Shown in pieces: positions 8,324 through 63,990 of a DNA stretch of 64,000 nucleotides. The notes beneath the pieces were generated by a model, which saw nothing but the letters and a program-made list of their open reading frames with translations, had not been told where the DNA came from and made no database searches. How positions within the stretch are numbered: the stretch's first letter is position 1; each line of letters begins with the position of its first letter. Source of the DNA: Scatophagus argus (Eukaryota > Chordata > Actinopteri > Scatophagidae); assembly GCF_020382885.2 (NCBI RefSeq), contig NC_058513.1:9643774-9707773 (forward strand), read 5' to 3'. A program made the translations under genes and the position numbers.

Positions 8324-17344
<9,021 letters not shown>

Positions 17345-18700
17345 ACTGCTCTGACTGGAGGCTAATACACCACTACTACTAGTACTACTACTACTACTAC
17401 TTCTGCACTGTGGTTATTGCAATTCCTGCGGTATTATACAGCTTATACAGAAGTTGCTGAGGGACACAAAATGGTGCTCAAATTAGAAAAACGTTTTTAT
17501 TTCATAACACTGCTACTCTGGAGTTACTGGGTGAACATGTAAAAAATGCACAAGTCGAGCTGGTGCCGATTTACAACATCTGGATGATATATGGACATTC
17601 TTCACCTAAACCTGATTAATAAACATAGCTAAATCTTTTTGTTCTGAAACACGGCAAACATATATAACGTTGATATTTAACAAAACTGCTAGCTAGTGGT
17701 TGATTAAAGCAGACAAACTGGTATGACAAGTTACAAGGCTGCCTTATGCGTTAAATACCGAGCACTACCCTAAAGATAAACATGAGAAGGTAGGCGAACT
17801 ACTGAGTTTTATTTCTGTACATTAGCTTATTTGTGTAAGTTGCACCGTATATGACGTTAACTATATGTGACGGTTAATAAGCAAATTAGCGCATAGTAGC
17901 GTTAACGTTATATAGCCTTGGACAAATCAAGTTTTTAAACGTCTGCTGCAGATTTCTGATATTAGCTGTTTGAGTCGGCCAACAAAATGTCAAGTAGGTC
18001 AAGTGGATGTTAGCACTGAAAAATAAATCAATTTAATTCTCTCTGTCAGGCCTGTTTTACAGGTGCAACAACATGCTATTTTAGCCTCGCAGTCGCTCTC
18101 CCACACAGCAGCGAGGTTAGCTTTAGCTTCAACGCCTCGACCAACGGCCGTCTCGCTCGCGCCGCCTGTCAAAAAAACCGACACCTCCTGAAGTTTCCAG
18201 TCATCACCAAACGGTAGGATTTATCGGACGGCCGCCGCATTCTCACAGTATTTCCTCGCAAAACAAACATCTTTAGCGTAGTCCTCCCCCTCCCTGACTC
18301 GCCCCGTCTCTCCCTCTCTACATCCCTGCAAGTAGCGGATCACAGCATCTTCTGCTCTCTCCTTTGGCGTGTCCTCCTCCCTCACCGGCGGTTACACAGG
18401 TAAAAAAAACACAGATATCCTCAGATCAACCCGCACTACTACCATCTACCTTATTTTCCACCTCAGTTCCGATAACAGTTCACGCAGTGTAAAGGCCCCC
18501 TATATTACACTCCCTTCGGTTTTCTTGCCGTAAATCGATATTTTCTCTCTCCTCTTCCTTCCTTCGTCTCACTCGCATCAGCATCCGGGTCCCACTCTCT
18601 CTCCATCCTCTCTCCTCTCGCCTCTACTCCCCCGCCCTCCTGCTCCTCCTCCTCCTCCTCCTGATCATCTTCCTTAAAATGCGCTTATCTTTGCATTTAC
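17345..18700 (-). promoter_or_regulatory. 5' leader and promoter region of brsk1
   Basis: From the ATG outward this interval has AACGTTA/GCTAGC words (about 17680-18120), then a CpG-containing stretch and a long pyrimidine-rich tract (18270-18660; purine-rich GGA/GAG on the gene strand). The tract ends in a (CCT)n run at 18641-18662. No ORF of note is present. A CpG-rich, GA-rich leader suits a TATA-less promoter. The transcription start was not located. Confidence 0.5.
17371..17400. repeat. (ACT)n / (AGT)n repeat just upstream of the brsk1 start codon
   Basis: An imperfect trinucleotide tract of about ten units begins 27 nt upstream of the brsk1 ATG. On the gene strand it reads as AGT triplets. 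If the leader is unspliced here, the repeat is part of the mRNA 5' UTR. Confidence 0.8.
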
Positions 18701-21666: not shown

Positions 21667-21672
21667 TTTTAT
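21667..21672 (-). terminator. Poly(A) signal of the twin-CX9C gene
   Basis: AATAAA on the minus strand about 22 nt beyond the TAA stop of the 49-aa protein. The short spacing would give a very compact 3' UTR. Confidence 0.55.
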
Positions 21673-21693
21673 TAAGATGGATTTCCTTATATA

Positions 21694-22692
21694 TTATGAT
21701 GCCTCTGACAGGGTTTTTATACAGGCCTGGAAAGCATCTATGAGATCTTTACAGCCGTCCATTCCCTTCTGTCTGACACTGAAACACAAAGCCAGATTTA
21801 TTAGAAGAAATCACCACTCGCTTCACATTTAGCTGGGTTATTCTCTTTGGCACAACAATTTCCATTAAAATTGTGCGAAGCAGAAGTTATATAAGTGCCT
21901 GACCTAGGAATATCTCTAAACTTATCCCTCATGTGCGTCCAACGGATTATCACAGTATAGCCTGATAATAAAGTATTTCAGCTTAAACCCTCACAGCTGC
22001 TCTTATCTGTATTTGATGAAACGCAAGAACAAGAGTGAGTAATCTGTGCAGCAGCTTCACTGACACTAATCATCGCTGCACGTGGACACACACCAAACGT
22101 CTGTCACTTATTGCATGTAACATGAACCAACAGGAATGTGTTGGTCCTCTCTCCACTGTAGGTCATACACGTGGAAGTCCATTTTAAACAGCGGGTCTAT
22201 TTATGCTTCTCAAGGCATTTATGTTACTGTAAGAGCCATCTTTAAATGTTATTACACTTAGTCTTATGATGCAGAGTGGATTTACGGACATTTACGAACA
22301 CATATTCTACATTAACTTCAGTTAGACTTAATGATCACCCCACAGGCGCTTGTACAAGTTGAACTCAGGTTAGAAGTTAATGTGAATACACTGAATGGCC
22401 AAAAGGATGTAATGGGAACTGACCACTGTAGCCAGAACCCAAACGCACTTAATGAACCTTCTTGAGTGCACAAAGTTATACAAAGGCACTCTGTAAAGGC
22501 ACTTCCACTCCCTAAAGGCTGTCACACTGGCTGGAGAAATTGTAATGATTGATTTTAAAATTGTGAACGTATGTTCATTTGTATATTTCAGCATCTGTAA
22601 TTGTGTCTCATTCCTGTCAGTACTCACCATTTGTCAACGTCCTCTTTGATAACCTGGCATGGTGCTGGAACAGCGTCGTTAGAGTCTAGCAT
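21694..22692 (-). CDS. Twin-CX9C (CHCH) microprotein, COX17-like
   Basis: Two exons (22692-22628 and 21778-21694) join in frame to 49 aa. The intron has a consensus donor (GTGAGTA) and acceptor (TTTGTGTTTCAG). Cysteines are at 12, 22, 31 and 41, giving C-x9-C, an 8-residue loop, and C-x9-C, as in COX17, and the second helix (GCKDLIDAFQAC) resembles the COX17 C-terminus. Such proteins are oxidised by MIA40 in the mitochondrial intermembrane space and form a disulfide-linked helical hairpin. The vicinal Cys pair that binds copper in COX17 is absent; Pro9 and Ala10 occupy those positions. An in-frame stop precedes the ATG with no other ATG between, and a poly(A) signal lies about 22-27 nt after the stop. 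No assigned name is known to me. It could be a COX17 paralogue, an unrelated CHCH protein, or a recent duplicate. Confidence 0.72.
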
Positions 22693-23729
22693 TGTGACAG
22701 AAGAGAGCTGGAGTTGGAGGAGGTGTGCTGCTGCGTGAGCTGCAGTCAAGTATGCTTACAGATTAGTTACAATGATGGAGGGAGGGGTGGAGGGAGGAGG
22801 GAGGAGGCATGACACTGACCGAGTACGATAAACTCAATAGGTGGAATCTAATTGCAAGAGATTACTCAAAATTTCTATTTATTTTATTTATCTTTTTCTC
22901 TGATATTCTTTCCCATTCATGTACATCAGCCTATTTAGGAATTCTCAAATTCTTTCGCTGCTCTCCTTTGTTTTACAGTCTTTATAATGAATATGCATGT
23001 CACTGACCTTTTGAGTCAAGCGTTATGCATTACAAAGGCCCCATAATGCATCTAAAAACACTCACTATGGGGTGTTTTTCCTGAAAAGAGATCAGGGAAG
23101 ACACAAGAGGTTGAGCAGAGAGTTGTAGCATTTGTTTAAGCCGTAAAATGTTGAATTAGGATTCAGCATGTTGTCACAAATAATGCCACCGATAGCCTGA
23201 AAATAATCCATAATTTTTAGGCTCTTGAAGATAAAAATAAAAGCAGATATGAGTAGAATTTGCAAGGCTGATCCATACAGGAACACACATTTGTTTCTTA
23301 TTTTGAATATCAAACTCATCTTGTCGTGACCGCATAGTTACATTCAGCAAACAGAAGTGAAACATACTGTTTTTGAGCATTTTGAGGTTTACTAACACTG
23401 AATCACTTTTTGTCCCACAAAGTTTTTTTAATCACACACAAGAATCAGATTGATTCATAACATGTTTTGTCTGTTTGTTTTTAATTTATGGATCTTCATA
23501 TTTATTCTACATTTTTATGAAATGTGATGATTGGGAAATGTTATATAGAGTTGTTTGTATGGATTTCAAATGTAGATATTTGAGTAAGGTTTGACCAGGT
23601 CGGTAAAAAAAATGATATGCCACTGTAATTAAAGTTACAAGTAAATGAATTGTGAATGTTTTCATCTGCTTAATATAAGACTGTATACCGGCAAGATGCG
23701 TCCACAATTTAACTTCACCACTAGAGGGC

Positions 23730-25449: not shown

Positions 25450-39163
<13,714 letters not shown>

Positions 39164-47139: not shown

Positions 47140-50100
47140 TCAGTTCTTCTCTCCTTCCTCTGCTTCTCCGTCATCCTCTGACCCAGACTCCCTCTGTTCT
47201 GTGAGGGAATTCTCCCTCAGTCCCGACATTGGGACCAGCTTCCCCTCTGAATCCACTCCCATCGGCTGGATAATGTTACCTCTGCAAAACAAGTGAATGG
47301 TACAAAATATGGACTATTTATTACTCAACATTAACATTCTTGTTACTGTTTTCATTTATTCTTTGTTCGCTGTGAGGGTTTTTTTTTTGTTGATGTTGTG
47401 AAAACTGGTACAAATAAACAATCTCAGTGATAGAAATCTTAATGATAAGAGATACTGTGAGTGTTTGTCATTCCACTGACCTGGCAAGCTTGCTGAAGAG
47501 CATGATCAGCCTCTTGGCCTCCTCCTCCTTCTCCTCCTCTGTCATGCCCTCCATGGGGTCTGGCTGCTCGGTCTCCACCCGCCCTGTCACCGGGTTGATA
47601 CGATCTTTGACTTGCCGGTACTCCTCAGTGTCAGAATCGGAGTCGCTGGAGTACTGGCCGTCAGTGCCAGAGGTCCTGCACCGCTGGCCAGCCAACAGAC
47701 CTCTGGTGGCCAGCAGGCCCGCGGCGTTACCGTAGCCTGTGTACTTGACAAAACGACTCACTGGAGGAAGAAGTGAAGGTGATGATTGGTGGAGACAGAG
47801 TATATACACAAAATGCATGTTGATGAAACACTGTTTGTTTTTGGTTTTTTTTGCTGTTATTTATAAAGAGTTGTGAAAGCCATCTACAGGAAATAAGAGA
47901 TGAAAATTAGACCGACACCCCATGGAGTCTTTGATTACTAATGCATGCTGTGCAGCCATGCATTGCTTAAAACCACAAAATTATTTTAAATTCCAGTGGA
48001 GAGCCATAAGCCAAAATGTGTCAAGCTGAATTTTCAAAAACTGTAGGTAAAAGTCACACACACAAGACTGTTTTAAAGAATATTTTCCATATTTAAAATA
48101 TAAAAGCAAAATCTTTCAAGTGATTTTAGAGGAAATTTGAGGGTAAGACATAACTTTAAGAGGTTAAATAATCGGGAGGGTTACAGTAGCAAAATTGTTG
48201 AGATTTTTGCATCTTTATCCTCTAGATTTTAAATCAGCTCGAGATGATAGCTAATCACATCCCCATTAATAATCCGTACACACTGCTCTTACCATTTTCC
48301 TTGCAGAGGACGAAGATGAGGTCTGCAGCGCAGTATTTAACGTCTGTGTCCAGATGAGTCATGAGACGGATCAGACGACTCTTCACAGTGGACCCTTCCT
48401 CTGGCCTGTGTGTTAAGTCTCTCAGGGGAGGCAGGATCTAATGATGGGGATGAATTATAAACTCAGCTAAACATGTAAAAAAAACACCAGTTACAAATAC
48501 AATCCAAATGTTATGAGAAGCAAATTGAGTTTTCTTTCGGATGTTTTTGGGGGTATTACATGTTTCCTGATGTAATGACGAGTTTCTCTGTGGGCCCTGC
48601 AGCTCTCAGTCAGCAGATTGAGGACTGGCGTCAGCCTCTCTTTGATTTTATCACCCTGAGAAACAGACAAACACAGAAGACTCTCTCATCTTATTTGAGC
48701 ATCAGTGAATGGCTTCCCGGTTTTTGGAGGAAACTCTTAATTTTAGCAGGGGCTGCTATACATTCTGCCTCTTCTCACCGAATCCAATCGTCTCTCCATG
48801 AACAGCAGCAGGGTGTGGACACAGTCCATGTTGACACCGTTGCACTGCTCTGAGCCTGGCTCCACAGGTCCCACCAGCAGCACATCGAGACACTGGAGAG
48901 GCAGCGCTGACAGCAGGTGGACCGTGTGACTGCGGAATTTCGAAATTAGAAAGACAGAAAGTCAGTTGATAAAAGAGAGCAATGAGACATAAATGTATTA
49001 TCAGCCCAGTATGTTCAAAATACACATGAATGACCCAACAGAACCCCTGAAAATTAAACTGACAGAATGAGAAAAAAAATTATGAAATTATATTTTTTAA
49101 AAAACTTTAAATGTATCATTCTAATTAGTAATGATTAATTAAGACTGTCATTGCAATTTGCTTTCCACCCAACCTCCCTTTGTTTCATGCTCACCCCTGC
49201 AGGTCCTCAGTGTCCTTTGGAAGCATACATTTCCTCATCAGGCAGACACGCAGGAGCGCCACTAGGTGTCGGTAGAGAGCTGCATCGTCCTAAGGTAGGA
49301 GAGAACTTGAGTAAAGCTCATATCTCTGTGATAATGTGCGAAATACAGCTGAGAGACAACAATGAGGTTAAGGGGGGATAAGTTTTGATTTAATCTATTC
49401 TTATTAGACGCTGACATTAACCCTGAAGGCTGGCAGGTTAATTACGGGCTCATCGTCACTGACCTCACTTGGCTCCTGCCTGTGGGAGCTGCAGGTGATG
49501 TTGAAGAGGATTTTGAGGATCTCTGTGATACGCTGAGAGGCTTCCAGTGAGATGGGTGGCACTGCAGGGCTCAGCTCACACTCATACTGGTCCTTCCACT
49601 GAACCTCCAGGCAGTTCTCCAGAGCTGCATTGAGAAGGGACACACCTCCCTCCTGGAAGAGCAACAAAATTTGTGTGAAAGCAAGAAGGGAGTCAGTTTA
49701 GAGGTGCGGAACAAGTCGGGTCTGTCCATGTCAATATTAGAATAAACTGGAGGCGACATGATAAAGAAAAGAAAATAAAGCTCAGGGGATTGTTGCATCA
49801 GAATAATCTACCACATGTTGTAACTACCATAACATATACTACAACAAACATTCAATCCTTTGCAGTATGCAAGGTCACATTACCTGTTGAAGCTGAGTCC
49901 TTAGCTCTGGCCGTAGTGCAGTAATCAGGAACATGAGGCGTAGTTCATAGAACTGGACACTGGAGGGAGGTGAGCAACTAACACTGGAGGAGAGACGCTC
50001 AATGAGACCACACGTCAGCCTGGGGGAAACAATGATGAGAGGTCAGCTGTGTGGAAACACGCTGATGTAAAGAAGAGAAAAACAAGCCAATGAGATGAGC

Positions 50101-52331
50101 CGGACGTAGTTTTGTCTCAGTGTGCCCTGTCAGTTTCCATCTCAGTTTGGGATTTGGATTTCTCATAATGACCTTCAACAACGCCCTGTTTACAGGCATA
50201 GACTTGTTGCCTTCAGTCAAAGGTGGCTCAATGTGTATATAATTAGAAACACAGGCAAACAGTTCGTAAACACTTTTGTTCATTGTTGGTGCAAAGCTGG
50301 TGCAACGCATTGAGTTTTTGACAGCTAAATGGACTGGAAAACAAAAGCTGACAGTTGTGTTTGACAGTATTTTGGATCCTTATGTGTGCATGTTTTTGTT
50401 TTGCGGCTTGTGAGGAAGCCCACCTGAGAGCACTGAACCTCTCCTGTGCCCAGATGCTGTTGTACACCACATTACATAAAACCTTCATGGCCTCTTTCCT
50501 CTGTGCCTCATCTCCTGAATTTCCTTCCTCCTCCTCCTCTTCCTCCACCTCCATCTTGCTCTCTCTGCGGTCCCTCCTCCCTCGCTCCAGAACCTTTTGA
50601 TGGATGCTGCCTCTGTGCGTTTCGTTGATGCTGGTCCTGTGGCTCCCCTGCCAGCTGATGCTGTCCAGATCTGCGCTGTTGGCATTGCTGATGTCACTGT
50701 TGGCGTCCTCGTCAAAGGCATAGCACTCTTCGTTTTGGTCTTTTGTTTCCATGTCACCTTCGTCCTCTTCAGCGTGAGACTGCAACACTTTGGCCTCAGC
50801 AAGAGAAGCGATAATGTTGTCATAGAAATCAGAGTCAGGGACACTGACTTCATCGCTTGCATCGCATGTGGTCAACCCAGCTAGTCTGGCCAAGGTCAGG
50901 AGAGCGCTGTCTGTCACGAAGGGGCCCAGGACCTTTTTGTCTCTGGAGAGGATTCTCAGGGTGCGTAGAGATACTCTCAACAGACGACATTTAACTTCTG
51001 TTCTTATGAACCTCAAGAGGACAACGGCTAAATTCTGAGGACAGGAAGAGAAAAAAATGGCATTTAGTTTAACATTATTATTAAAAGGAACATGTGACAA
51101 TACCGTCACTTACCTGTCTGAGAATGAGGCCTCGATCCTCCTGGTCATAGTCGTCACAGTCTGAGTCAGAGTCAGTGTAGTCCCTCACTTTATTCTTCTT
51201 GAACTGGTACAGCAGGGCAAAGAAAAAAATTAAAGGGAAATTTGAAGCTGTTCTCACATATGACCAAAAGCAATACTTGAAGATTATTTCTAAAATGTGG
51301 CAGTGCTGTACCTCTTCGAGCTTTCTTTGCTTTATGAGGTGGATAGTCCGATTTCAGTGAGCAGACAGAAGAAATATCAGTACATTACACAAAGTGTGAC
51401 CCTTATCTAACTGTCAGGAGTCCTTCTAAAAGTTCCTAACAAAGAACTTCTAAGCTATTCATAAAGCTGCTAAGCCAAGAGGATAGGTTGGGTTTCTATG
51501 CAAGACATCTTATTGGTTTCTTCATTAATTTACTCACGGTCTACAACGATAGGATGAGATTGGATTAACATTAAAAATCAAAAAATTAAATAGCATCTAA
51601 AATTACATTTTCAATTATATCTGATTATTAAATTAAATTAATTAATTTAAGTCATTTTTAATTAAATATAAAATGAAATCAATTTAAATTATATGTAAAA
51701 ATGTAATTATATTAAAATCAAAAATGTATTTTATTAAAGTAAATATAGATAGATAGATTTTTGGACTTTGGGAGTATCCTCTAACTCAGCCATTTAAGAG
51801 CTGCTTCTGACCTCAGGATGTTTGTGAATTTGGCCACAAATCTGCTATTCAGTGACTGCAGATGACAGACCTGAAAGTGTTGAATAGATTAACATGCGCT
51901 ATGTTGGTTACTCAATCTGCTTGAGCATGCAAGGAAAGAGGATCAGGGACAACTGATACAGCAGAATTACTAATCACAGTAGGGGGTGGATGAGATGGAG
52001 CAGTGGGGTGGGGCGGGGTAAGGAAAGGTGTGGTTTAGGGAATGCAGGTAGGACAGAGATGTGACAGCAGATGCAACATAAACCAACCTACTTTCCTTCG
52101 ATCCCTCTCCTCTGCATCAAAAAAGAAGCACTGGGCAAACTGTAGGAGAGAAATGACAACAAAATGATGGTCTTTAAATGTCAAAATAAGCAGCAGCAAT
52201 CGTCCAGGCACAAGAGTGTGTGAGTCTCTATGTGGTTTTACCGCTTTGTTGAACTCCTGCAGCTGTGTCTGAACACCGTTCTCATCCCCCTGTTTGATGC
52301 ACTGGATAATCCCCTCCAGGTCCATGTCCAT
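47140..52331 (-). CDS. ric8: RIC8-family G-alpha chaperone/GEF (synembryn), divergent copy
   Basis: Twelve coding exons: 52331-52242, 52139-52092, 51203-51114, 51034-50424, 50019-49884, 49652-49464, 49289-49195, 48929-48779, 48655-48560, 48437-48293, 47760-47481, 47281-47140, in frame to 690 aa. An untranslated exon probably ends at 52736. Family blocks include [41 protein letters not shown] and [20 protein letters not shown]. Also present are the acidic Ser/Thr cluster [12 protein letters not shown] that CK2 phosphorylates in RIC8A, and [18 protein letters not shown]8 folds nascent G-alpha subunits and can act as a GEF. At 690 aa it is about 160 aa longer than human RIC8A, mainly from an acidic Ser/Glu/Asp-rich insertion (about 132-260). 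It is neither clearly RIC8A nor RIC8B and may be a third paralogue. A second ATG lies two codons after the first. Confidence 0.92.
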
Positions 52332-61400: not shown

Positions 61401-63990
61401 GACTTATCTTTATAGCACCAGTAAATGTGATTAAATCAGATGAAATTATTTTCTCCTTAAGGTGATTTTATTATTTTGCCTACCTCTCATACCCTGCCAC
61501 TTGCTAAAATGTTCACTGAAGGTCAAGTCAGCAGAGTCAGCAAGATTTTATTCTCAAATGAAGAACCATCTAAACCAGATCATAAAGATGGGCAGACATT
61601 GCAGTTTTTCTATTTTTGATTATGTAAGAATTTTCCGGTGAAGTCAAAATACTCCAAAACCCCCTGCATTTCAAACAAACGGACTGACTAATAATATGAG
61701 AAAAATGAATCTGTGCTTTCCTGGAAGACACAGGACCTTCTCATGGTGGTTTTAACAAGGAAAATACAGCTGTTACAAAACATAGTACCATTGCACTGTG
61801 TGTCTCCTTGGGGTCTGAATCTAATTTGGTACTACAATGGCCATTTCCTCCTGACTACTGTGCCAAGGGCAGGTGGCACACAGTGATACTGATCTCCCCT
61901 CATTGGAGGTCACTTTAACTGGCTGTTTACAGCAAAGGTAATAAGACAGGTGCAAAAACATTCAGGCATACACACAAACAAATATTAGTCGATTAATCCT
62001 TGGCCTTAGTTAAACATGGTTGTGGGGAAATGTGATGTGTGCGGTACAGTGGTGTGAGCAGAGCTGTTGTACATAGAGACACATCGTGACTTATGTGCAT
62101 GTTGTGACACTTTATACACCTTTTCTTCTACTTGACTTTACTAAGCTACTTATGTGATATGTACGCATCTCTCTGTATCTCCGTGACCTGCAATTTGCAC
62201 TCACCAAACACTTAAATTCCACTTTCCCAATTTAAAACTCTATTGGATTATCTGAAAAGTGTCGCTGGCTGAAAACATGGCTATTCTTCTTTGCACATGA
62301 AAAGCTGATAGTTAGGAAGTATATGATTTTCATAGAACAGTGATGAAATGTAGATACTGTGTATGAATGCAGTCCTTGTTACATAAGATCATGACATTGT
62401 ATGTTATATATAAACGATAAAAAGATAAGCTCATTTATATCCAGTCTGGAAGAATATTTCTCAGTAATCTACTTGATAGAACAAGGATAATTGTGCATTT
62501 TGCAGACAGCTTTCCATTGCAAAACTTTGTCATGAGCTAAGTTTTGGTTTTGATTCTCACAGTCACTGTGACTGACTCTTCCAACAGGAGCGTGGATCCT
62601 GACGGCAGGCTTGCGTGAAGGCGTTGGCAGGTGTGTTGGAGAGGCAGTAAGGGATCACGCCACTGCAGCTTCATCGGTCTCCTTCAACAAGGTGGTGGCG
62701 CTGGGCATTGCTCCGTGGGGCCTGGTGCACAACCGACAACAGCTGATCAACCCTCAGGTTGTACAGGCACTGTATTTTCATGTTGAATTACCTACTCTTA
62801 AAAATATGGTGTTTACAATGCATGTTTGCCTTTACTTCACAATCTGGGTTCCTGATCCTAACTGTTATATTCTACCGCTGCATTTTTGCTCTTGCAGGGC
62901 AGCTTTCCTGCTAAGTACTATGTCCAAAACACGTCCCGGGACTCCTGCTGTCTTGACAACAACTACCAGGCCTTCCTGCTGGTGGACGACGGGAGTGTGG
63001 GACGCAGAGGAGGAGAAACGGGGTTCAGGGCCAAACTGGAGGACTACATTTCCCACCAGCGCACAGGCATCTGGGGTGAGAGCTGGCATAATGAAATTTT
63101 ATAGTTCACATTGTATGTACAATAGAAGATTTGGAAGAAGCTGCTTCCTGCACACACACACATATATAGTCCAGGAATTTGGTTACTTGTGTAAACTGAA
63201 TGCAAAGAATGAAAACAGCTCAAAGCTTTTGCAGCTGTAAACATCCATCCAACAACCGTCCGACCCTGATTTCAAACTATTTGGCCCTCTTGTGGTGAAC
63301 ATCTACTAATGCATGTAATTGATGATCATCTGGCATCCAATGGATGAAAGCCATTGCATTCCCCTGCAAGAAAACACTTCTGTTCAGCACGTAAAATCAA
63401 GCAGAGATTTGTCCAAAATGTAACTGGGTACCTTTTCCGTGTCTGTGCTGTCTCTAATTTCTTGTATTATGAGAAAAAGATGTAGTTTCATTGTTGTAAT
63501 GTACAAACATTGATCATAATGTCTGCATTTAAAGTAAAGTCAGTAAAGGTTTATGCATGTATATTTACAGGCAGTGGCAGCATTGACATCCCTGTCCTTT
63601 GTATGCTGGTGTCAGGGGAGTCGAGCATGTTGGAGGTACAGTCACTACTTTATATGTTGGTTGCTTTTCACAGAACTTACTATTAAATTAATTTCCTTAT
63701 TATACTCTTTTATTTTGTAAAGTAACATTTGACTTTCTTTTCCTAAAATCTATCAGAGAGTGGATCTTTCTCTGAAAAACTCTATGCCCTGGCTGGTGCT
63801 GGCTGGCTCAGGGGGCCTAGCTGACTTCTTGAGTGACATCTTGGAGAATCTGTCTTCGTCCCCGGCTGTCCAATCTACCAGTGAGGGTGATGGCGAGGCG
63901 GGTCCCAGTGTGGATCTGAAAGACAAAATGACAGAACGGGTTAAGAAGCACTTCCCCTCTGAAGCGGAGACAGAAAAACTAGTGGAACGA
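58401..63990 (+). CDS. trpm4: TRPM4 cation channel, N-terminal part (runs off the right edge)
   Basis: Eight coding exons are visible: 58401-58466, 59907-59968, 60086-60263, 60511-60691, 62588-62757, 62898-63075, 63571-63635, 63757-63990, in frame for 378 aa, ending at a donor (GTATGT). They cover the TRPM homology region: [82 protein letters not shown] and [15 protein letters not shown]. The order and spacing match TRPM4, a Ca2+-activated monovalent cation channel that depolarises cells. TRPM5 is the close alternative, but the locus (irf3, prr12, adm5) favours TRPM4. The six membrane helices and TRP box must lie to the right. Introns 58467-59906 and 60692-62587 carry no other gene that I can see. 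Confidence 0.92.
59239..59340. repeat. Short inverted-terminal-repeat element (MITE-like)
   Basis: The ends are 18-bp inverted repeats with two mismatches (ATGGCTGCGTTCCATTTA and, reverse-complemented, ATGGTTGCGTTCCATCTA). It lies in trpm4 intron 1. The left part also matches 19771-19860. Confidence 0.6.
59448..59500. repeat. Hairpin combined with a 19-bp direct repeat
   Basis: Perfect 13-bp inverted arms (AATGCATTTCTTT, 59448-59460, and its complement at 59488-59500) enclose two 19-bp direct copies of TTTCTTTAAGGATTAAAGA at 59454-59472 and 59474-59492. It lies in trpm4 intron 1. Confidence 0.8.

Follow-up and report, generated by a model that had tools for sequence, protein, structure and literature searches.

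A probable COX17-derived small gene without the copper-binding cysteine pair, with a second copy beside a duplicate brsk1-like gene in Scatophagus argus

The window, as we call the whole stretch of 64,000 nucleotides of Scatophagus argus DNA analysed here, probably harbors a genuine small coding gene of COX17 descent whose product would adopt a CHCH fold. On the basis of sequence comparisons, we read it as an old COX17 paralogue that was duplicated and of which both copies have been retained. The second duplicate lies on contig C16 beside a duplicate brsk1, which suggests that the window gene makes a real protein. Since the window gene is one of a pair, what began as the sighting of a motif becomes evidence of selection. 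Genes of this kind, split by an intron and encoding 49–58 amino acids, can be overlooked by open reading frame callers.

Results

The window gene lies on the minus strand and comprises two coding exons. An earlier note had proposed this model, and re-reading of the sequence reproduced its coordinates, splice sites and translation. The gene starts with an ATG at 22692 in the context CACAATGC (minus strand). The coding part of exon 1 (22628..22692; 65 coding bases) reads MLDSNDAVPAPCQVIKEDVDK followed by the TG of a split cysteine codon; it contains the first CX9C cysteine and no CC pair. The donor is ATG/GTGAGT at 22628/22627, and the acceptor reads TTTGTGTTTCAG/TG before 21778 (TTTCAG). The GT-AG intron between them (21779..22627; 849 nt, phase 2) splits the codon of the second CX9C cysteine. 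The coding part of exon 2 (21694..21778; 85 bases including the TAA, whose last base is 21694) was assigned by direct reading and by its match to exon 2 of the C16 copy, and contributes the T of the split codon, VRQKGMDGCKDLIDAFQACIKTLSEAS and the stop. The resulting coding sequence of 150 nt yields a spliced product of 49 amino acids, MLDSNDAVPAPCQVIKEDVDKCVRQKGMDGCKDLIDAFQACIKTLSEAS. Both flanking signals claimed previously are present: the nearest upstream in-frame stop, a TAA at 22756..22758, is located 63 nt before the ATG by computed distance and by reading of the bases, with no in-frame ATG in between, and an AATAAA polyadenylation signal read directly at 21668..21673 (in the order 21673-21668) occurs 20 nt past the stop codon. 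Both strands of the window were scanned for two exons with the same phase and the same spacing of the cysteines, joined across an intron of 50–3000 nt with a GT(A/G)AG donor. The single match was the window gene, as opposed to no match in 20 dinucleotide-block shuffles of the window, and a chance motif was rejected on these grounds; stronger support came from the second copy on C16.

The cysteines of the window protein at positions 12, 22, 31 and 41 form the pattern C-x9-C-x8-C-x9-C, which is exactly the COX17-type spacing that had been described. According to the accessible part of PMC12114033, Cys23 and Cys24 constitute the copper-binding motif of COX17, Cys26-Cys55 and Cys36-Cys45 form disulfides, Cys45 docks to MIA40/CHCHD4, and the arrangement CX9C-X8-CX9C is given for COX17 alone in Table 2. 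The reported absence of the copper-ligand cysteines held up as well: in an ungapped register, Pro and Ala occupy positions -3 and -2 before the first CX9C cysteine. Both new proteins have Pro-Ala at the positions at which cox17 on contig C11 has Cys-Cys, and neither contains the copper(I)-binding CC(x)C pair of COX17 (PF05051). Since this defining feature is absent by sequence, the window gene is classed as a copper-site-less COX17-derived paralogue and is not filed as a COX17-type copper chaperone. The sequence feature of twin CX9C MIA40 substrates, hydrophobic residues after the predicted docking cysteine, occurs in both the window protein (C31-KDLIDAF) and the C16 protein (C-KDLMEAF).

Against the Pfam COX17 family (PF05051; cut-off 24.9 bits), the window protein scored 26.5 bits and the C16 protein 28.0 bits, a narrow pass in both cases, while the canonical cox17 of this genome reached 78.1 bits and thus lies far above both paralogues. 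Membership in Cmc1, CHCH, UPF0203, Pet191_N, CX9C and GCK was rejected with scores under the respective cut-offs; the other Pfam families listed, four for the window protein and six for the C16 protein, were all sub-cut-off. A PDB search with the window protein listed four sequences up to E 10, all of them COX17 chains (best E 0.016), a similarity which is weak when taken alone. At the level of the genome, the exons of neither paralogue were among the 11 matches obtained with PF05051 up to E 10; two of these matches were cox17 and nine were weak, four of the latter being read in the matching frame (L007, L008, L009 and L012). Similarly, a genome search with canonical cox17 recovered no sequence but its own up to E 1. 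Because both genome searches missed the two paralogues, the link to COX17 rests on the Pfam scores of the spliced proteins, the spacing and the intron.

When the entire genome (570.7 Mb) was searched with the Pfam model, canonical cox17 proved to be a separate gene on C11, and the window gene was thereby rejected as the canonical gene. The cox17 intron is 81 nt in length and is also of phase 2. It occupies the same position in all three genes: the second CX9C cysteine is split as TG/C in cox17 and as TG/T in both paralogues. The retained intron further led us to reject a retrocopy of cox17. Thus, the common intron position together with the Pfam scores lends support to the earlier proposal of derivation from COX17. 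Within the core, 12 and 13 of 38 positions of the two new proteins agree with cox17 from this genome; both proteins have a shorter N-terminus.

Neither new protein carries the C-terminal GFKI of cox17, and with the CC pair likewise gone, COX17 features beyond the four-cysteine core have disappeared. This would be in line with a protein that has kept the COX17 fold and left copper handling and COX assembly altogether. Like TRIAP1 or CMC4, it would serve in the intermembrane space as a structural or redox microprotein folded by MIA40, and its use would be restricted to certain tissues, perhaps neuronal ones. A twin CX9C protein of listed unknown function exists in CMC4, according to the excerpt of PMC7909247. 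However, 10 of the 38 core positions are the same in all three genes, including a KG that precedes and an L..A that follows the third cysteine. With respect to neuronal use, a scan for the RE1 motif with up to 5 mismatches gave no match near the window gene; two matches occurred elsewhere in the window and one in the BRSK1 region of C16. We consider such a departure from copper and COX assembly unlikely, and continue with the reading as a retained COX17 paralogue.

The second copy was found with the 49-residue protein as genome query, which matched an exon 2 on C16 with 41% identity over query residues 12–48 (E 2.8e-4). This exon reads CVAEKGAEGCKDLMEAFAACVKSAAEGTS and has the same phase as in the window gene; the reverse genome search from the C16 copy recovered window exon 2 at E 0.0029. 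Exon 1 of the C16 copy was located by motif scanning. A scan for TG/GTRAG donors within 4.1 kb upstream of exon 2 gave one donor at which the cysteine was absent. When the scan was widened to 13 kb and to TG/GY donors preceded at ten codons by a cysteine, five candidates emerged, and one of them, at C16:4545349-4545437, reads MSDSETAAAAPAEAPVPAACASIKADLDK. By hand count, 9 of the 14 residues of VPAPCQVIKEDVDK are identical to the window protein, and the scan itself imposed just one of these; the genome searches missed this exon 1 resemblance in both directions, and it was seen only in the motif scan with one cysteine fixed. The donor of this exon, GTAGGC, is weaker than consensus. The predicted C16 protein has 58 amino acids, is encoded across an intron of 7626 nt, and is identical to the window protein in C-x9-C-x8-C-x9-C and Pro-Ala. 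Its gene seems to be longer at the 3' end (L003 1501-2190), perhaps with a 3' UTR intron and an AATAAA near L003:2183. Searches with both proteins gave no further copies among the best candidates scored in the genome. An extra copy beside the BRSK2-like loci on C1 and C7 was looked for in 30 kb of each and among the best genome-wide candidates, and none occurred.

The window and C16 proteins are identical at 24 of 49 aligned residues, 11 of which, including two cysteines, use different codons. A hand count restricted to exon 2 gives 15 identities in 28 residues; for exon 1, the comparison depends on the C16 exon that the motif scan located. Over the 49 aligned codons, pS was 0.77 and thus saturated, and pN was 0.33 and not saturated. 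pN was lower than pS in 5000 of 5000 bootstraps, with an upper 97.5% bound of dN/dS of 0.39 when saturated replicates were set to zero. Compared with a pN of 0.004 for three BRSK1 kinase exons, the value of 0.33 indicates much looser constraint in the small-gene pair. Given the short frame and the lost ligands, the window gene might instead be a decaying duplicate, an old and unused cox17 copy that has escaped disruption of its frame by luck. In a neutral simulation with substitutions only and no indels (20000 runs per divergence level), 11–30% of the copies were free of stops, 13% at 1.0 substitution per site, and an open frame by itself therefore proves little. However, both copies have kept the frame, the four cysteines and the intron phase at saturated synonymous divergence. 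The combination of no stop, all four cysteines and an identity of 24/49 or more was kept in 2.1% of the simulated neutral copies at 0.3 substitutions per site, in 10/20000 at 0.5, and in 0/20000 at each level from 0.75 upwards (0.75, 1.0 and 1.5). Luck of this kind appears very improbable, and a pair of genes retained under selection is the reading that we pursue.

Downstream of the window gene and on the same strand, open frames matching C16 outline a BRSK1-like kinase gene at approximately 8327..17413 (minus strand), which marks the duplicated block; a PRR12-like large open frame is located on the other side (28321..33123, plus strand). These neighbors, which we take to be BRSK1 and PRR12 in the window and on C16, and BRSK2-like on C1 and C7, fit the brsk1-prr12 interval named in the earlier note. 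A BRSK exon of the window matched 27 places in the genome, four of them at 94–100% identity: on C21, the contig of the window, and on C16, C1 and C7. In the DNA compared, C16 matches the window BRSK gene over far more length than C1 or C7, and variable BRSK exons are closer to C16, for example 44/52 for C16 versus 35/52 for C1. As the C16 match is both longer and better, we assign the BRSK1 pair to C21 and C16 and the BRSK2-like pair to C1 and C7.

In both blocks BRSK1 lies downstream of the small gene in the same orientation, with its first matched exon about 4.4 kb away on C21 and 6.2 kb away on C16. A 117-aa PRR12-like piece had one other match in the genome up to E 0.001, again on C16, with 54% identity. 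Thus, as for a duplicate pair set beside the same neighbor gene, BRSK1 adjoins both copies and PRR12-like sequence occurs on both chromosomes. Because the BRSK1 copy and the only other PRR12-like match are both on C16, the two blocks look like copies from a genome duplication. Between C21 and C16, pS of BRSK1 was 0.67 over three kinase exons (108 codons), which is near saturation as expected for an old duplication; we infer that this was the teleost-specific genome duplication. The PRR12-like match on C16 (C16:476007-476291) has one TGA inside and is about 4 Mb away from the BRSK1 block, and the duplicated blocks seem to be rearranged in this respect. The location of the small gene 4–6 kb upstream on the BRSK1 strand in both blocks might also point to a dicistronic or regulatory element of BRSK1, either an upstream open frame or a set of alternative 5' exons, and to no independent gene, a reading to which we give very little credence, as AATAAA occurs 20 nt past the stop on C21 and another about 560 nt past the stop on C16, and the peptide is under amino-acid constraint.

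Elsewhere in the window, two large open frames on the minus strand (47471-47860 and 50246-51109) resemble parts of a RIC8-type guanine nucleotide exchange factor gene, and an open frame on the plus strand (62572-63237) holds a stretch of 18 residues that we take to be TRPM4/5-like.

Discussion

Because the same phase-2 intron lies in the same cysteine codon, the paralogue probably originated by a DNA-level duplication of cox17. The CC copper-binding pair would have been lost before the brsk1 block was duplicated, with the CHCH hairpin and its two disulfides being retained. The protein would be made in the cytosol, cross the outer membrane and be oxidised by MIA40/CHCHD4, docking through its third cysteine, C31, followed by KDLIDAF, as the counterpart of C45 of COX17. 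By analogy with C26-C55 and C36-C45 of COX17, disulfides are predicted between C12 and C41 and between C22 and C31. Without the CC pair, carriage of Cu(I) of the COX17 kind is not expected. As the four structural cysteines and the hydrophobic residues are kept and the copper pair is absent, the protein should be able to enter and fold, though not to carry copper; judged from its sequence, it is probably imported by MIA40.

As to function, the retained helical surface may bind a partner of COX17, either the copper-insertion factors SCO1 or COX11 or the MICOS complex, in a copper-independent manner, and modulate or compete. We put forward such a partner-binding role tentatively. The interaction of Cox17 with MICOS is promoted by copper, which would favor SCO1 or COX11 over MICOS, or else a weaker hold on MICOS. 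In a wider frame, it is possible, if doubtful, that the pair represents a new vertebrate family of twin CX9C proteins, namely COX17 paralogues that lost copper binding prior to duplication of the brsk1 block and were kept twice, acting as a copper-independent regulator such as a copper-deaf competitor of COX17 at SCO1, COX11 or Mic60. As a conserved COX17 paralogue lacking the copper site, the gene would constitute a natural separation-of-function mutant that could distinguish the copper-dependent interactions of COX17 from those for which the CHCH surface suffices, and would extend the well-catalogued proteins of the intermembrane space by one member. COX17 itself is an essential copper chaperone, and null mice die as embryos, according to the accessible part of PMC7909247 (Table 3).

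Word searches of open-access papers gave no prior mention of the small gene among the matches listed; automated annotation may already list the window gene as an unnamed fish locus. Two of the matches to the names cox17-like and cox17b were rejected as earlier mentions, as they refer to COX19 (PMC11011759) and to an Arabidopsis gene (PMC6696091). In the available portion of a study of a sea bass gonad network, cox17 is named and no sequence is given (PMC9509653).

Among known systems, the window gene resembles COX17 in the C-x9-C/8-residue loop/C-x9-C arrangement, the phase-2 intron site, KG and L..A around the third cysteine, and a Pfam score above the cut-off. It differs in having Pro-Ala instead of CC, a shorter N-terminus and no GFKI end, and in being linked to brsk1, whereas cox17 is located on C11. 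With CMC4, TRIAP1 and other small twin CX9C substrates of MIA40 it shares the size class and the two CX9C motifs (PMC12114033 Table 2, in the part available). In contrast to the loop of 8 residues observed here, those of CMC4 and TRIAP1 comprise 9 and 18 residues in the same table, and the cut-off of no other Pfam family was passed. A further parallel is provided by Arabidopsis HCC2, described in the accessible text of PMC5877523 as a retained paralogue of a mitochondrial copper chaperone without the metal-binding motif; unlike the window gene, HCC2 is a plant gene and a homologue of SCO1, and belongs to the SCO family and not to the CHCH proteins.
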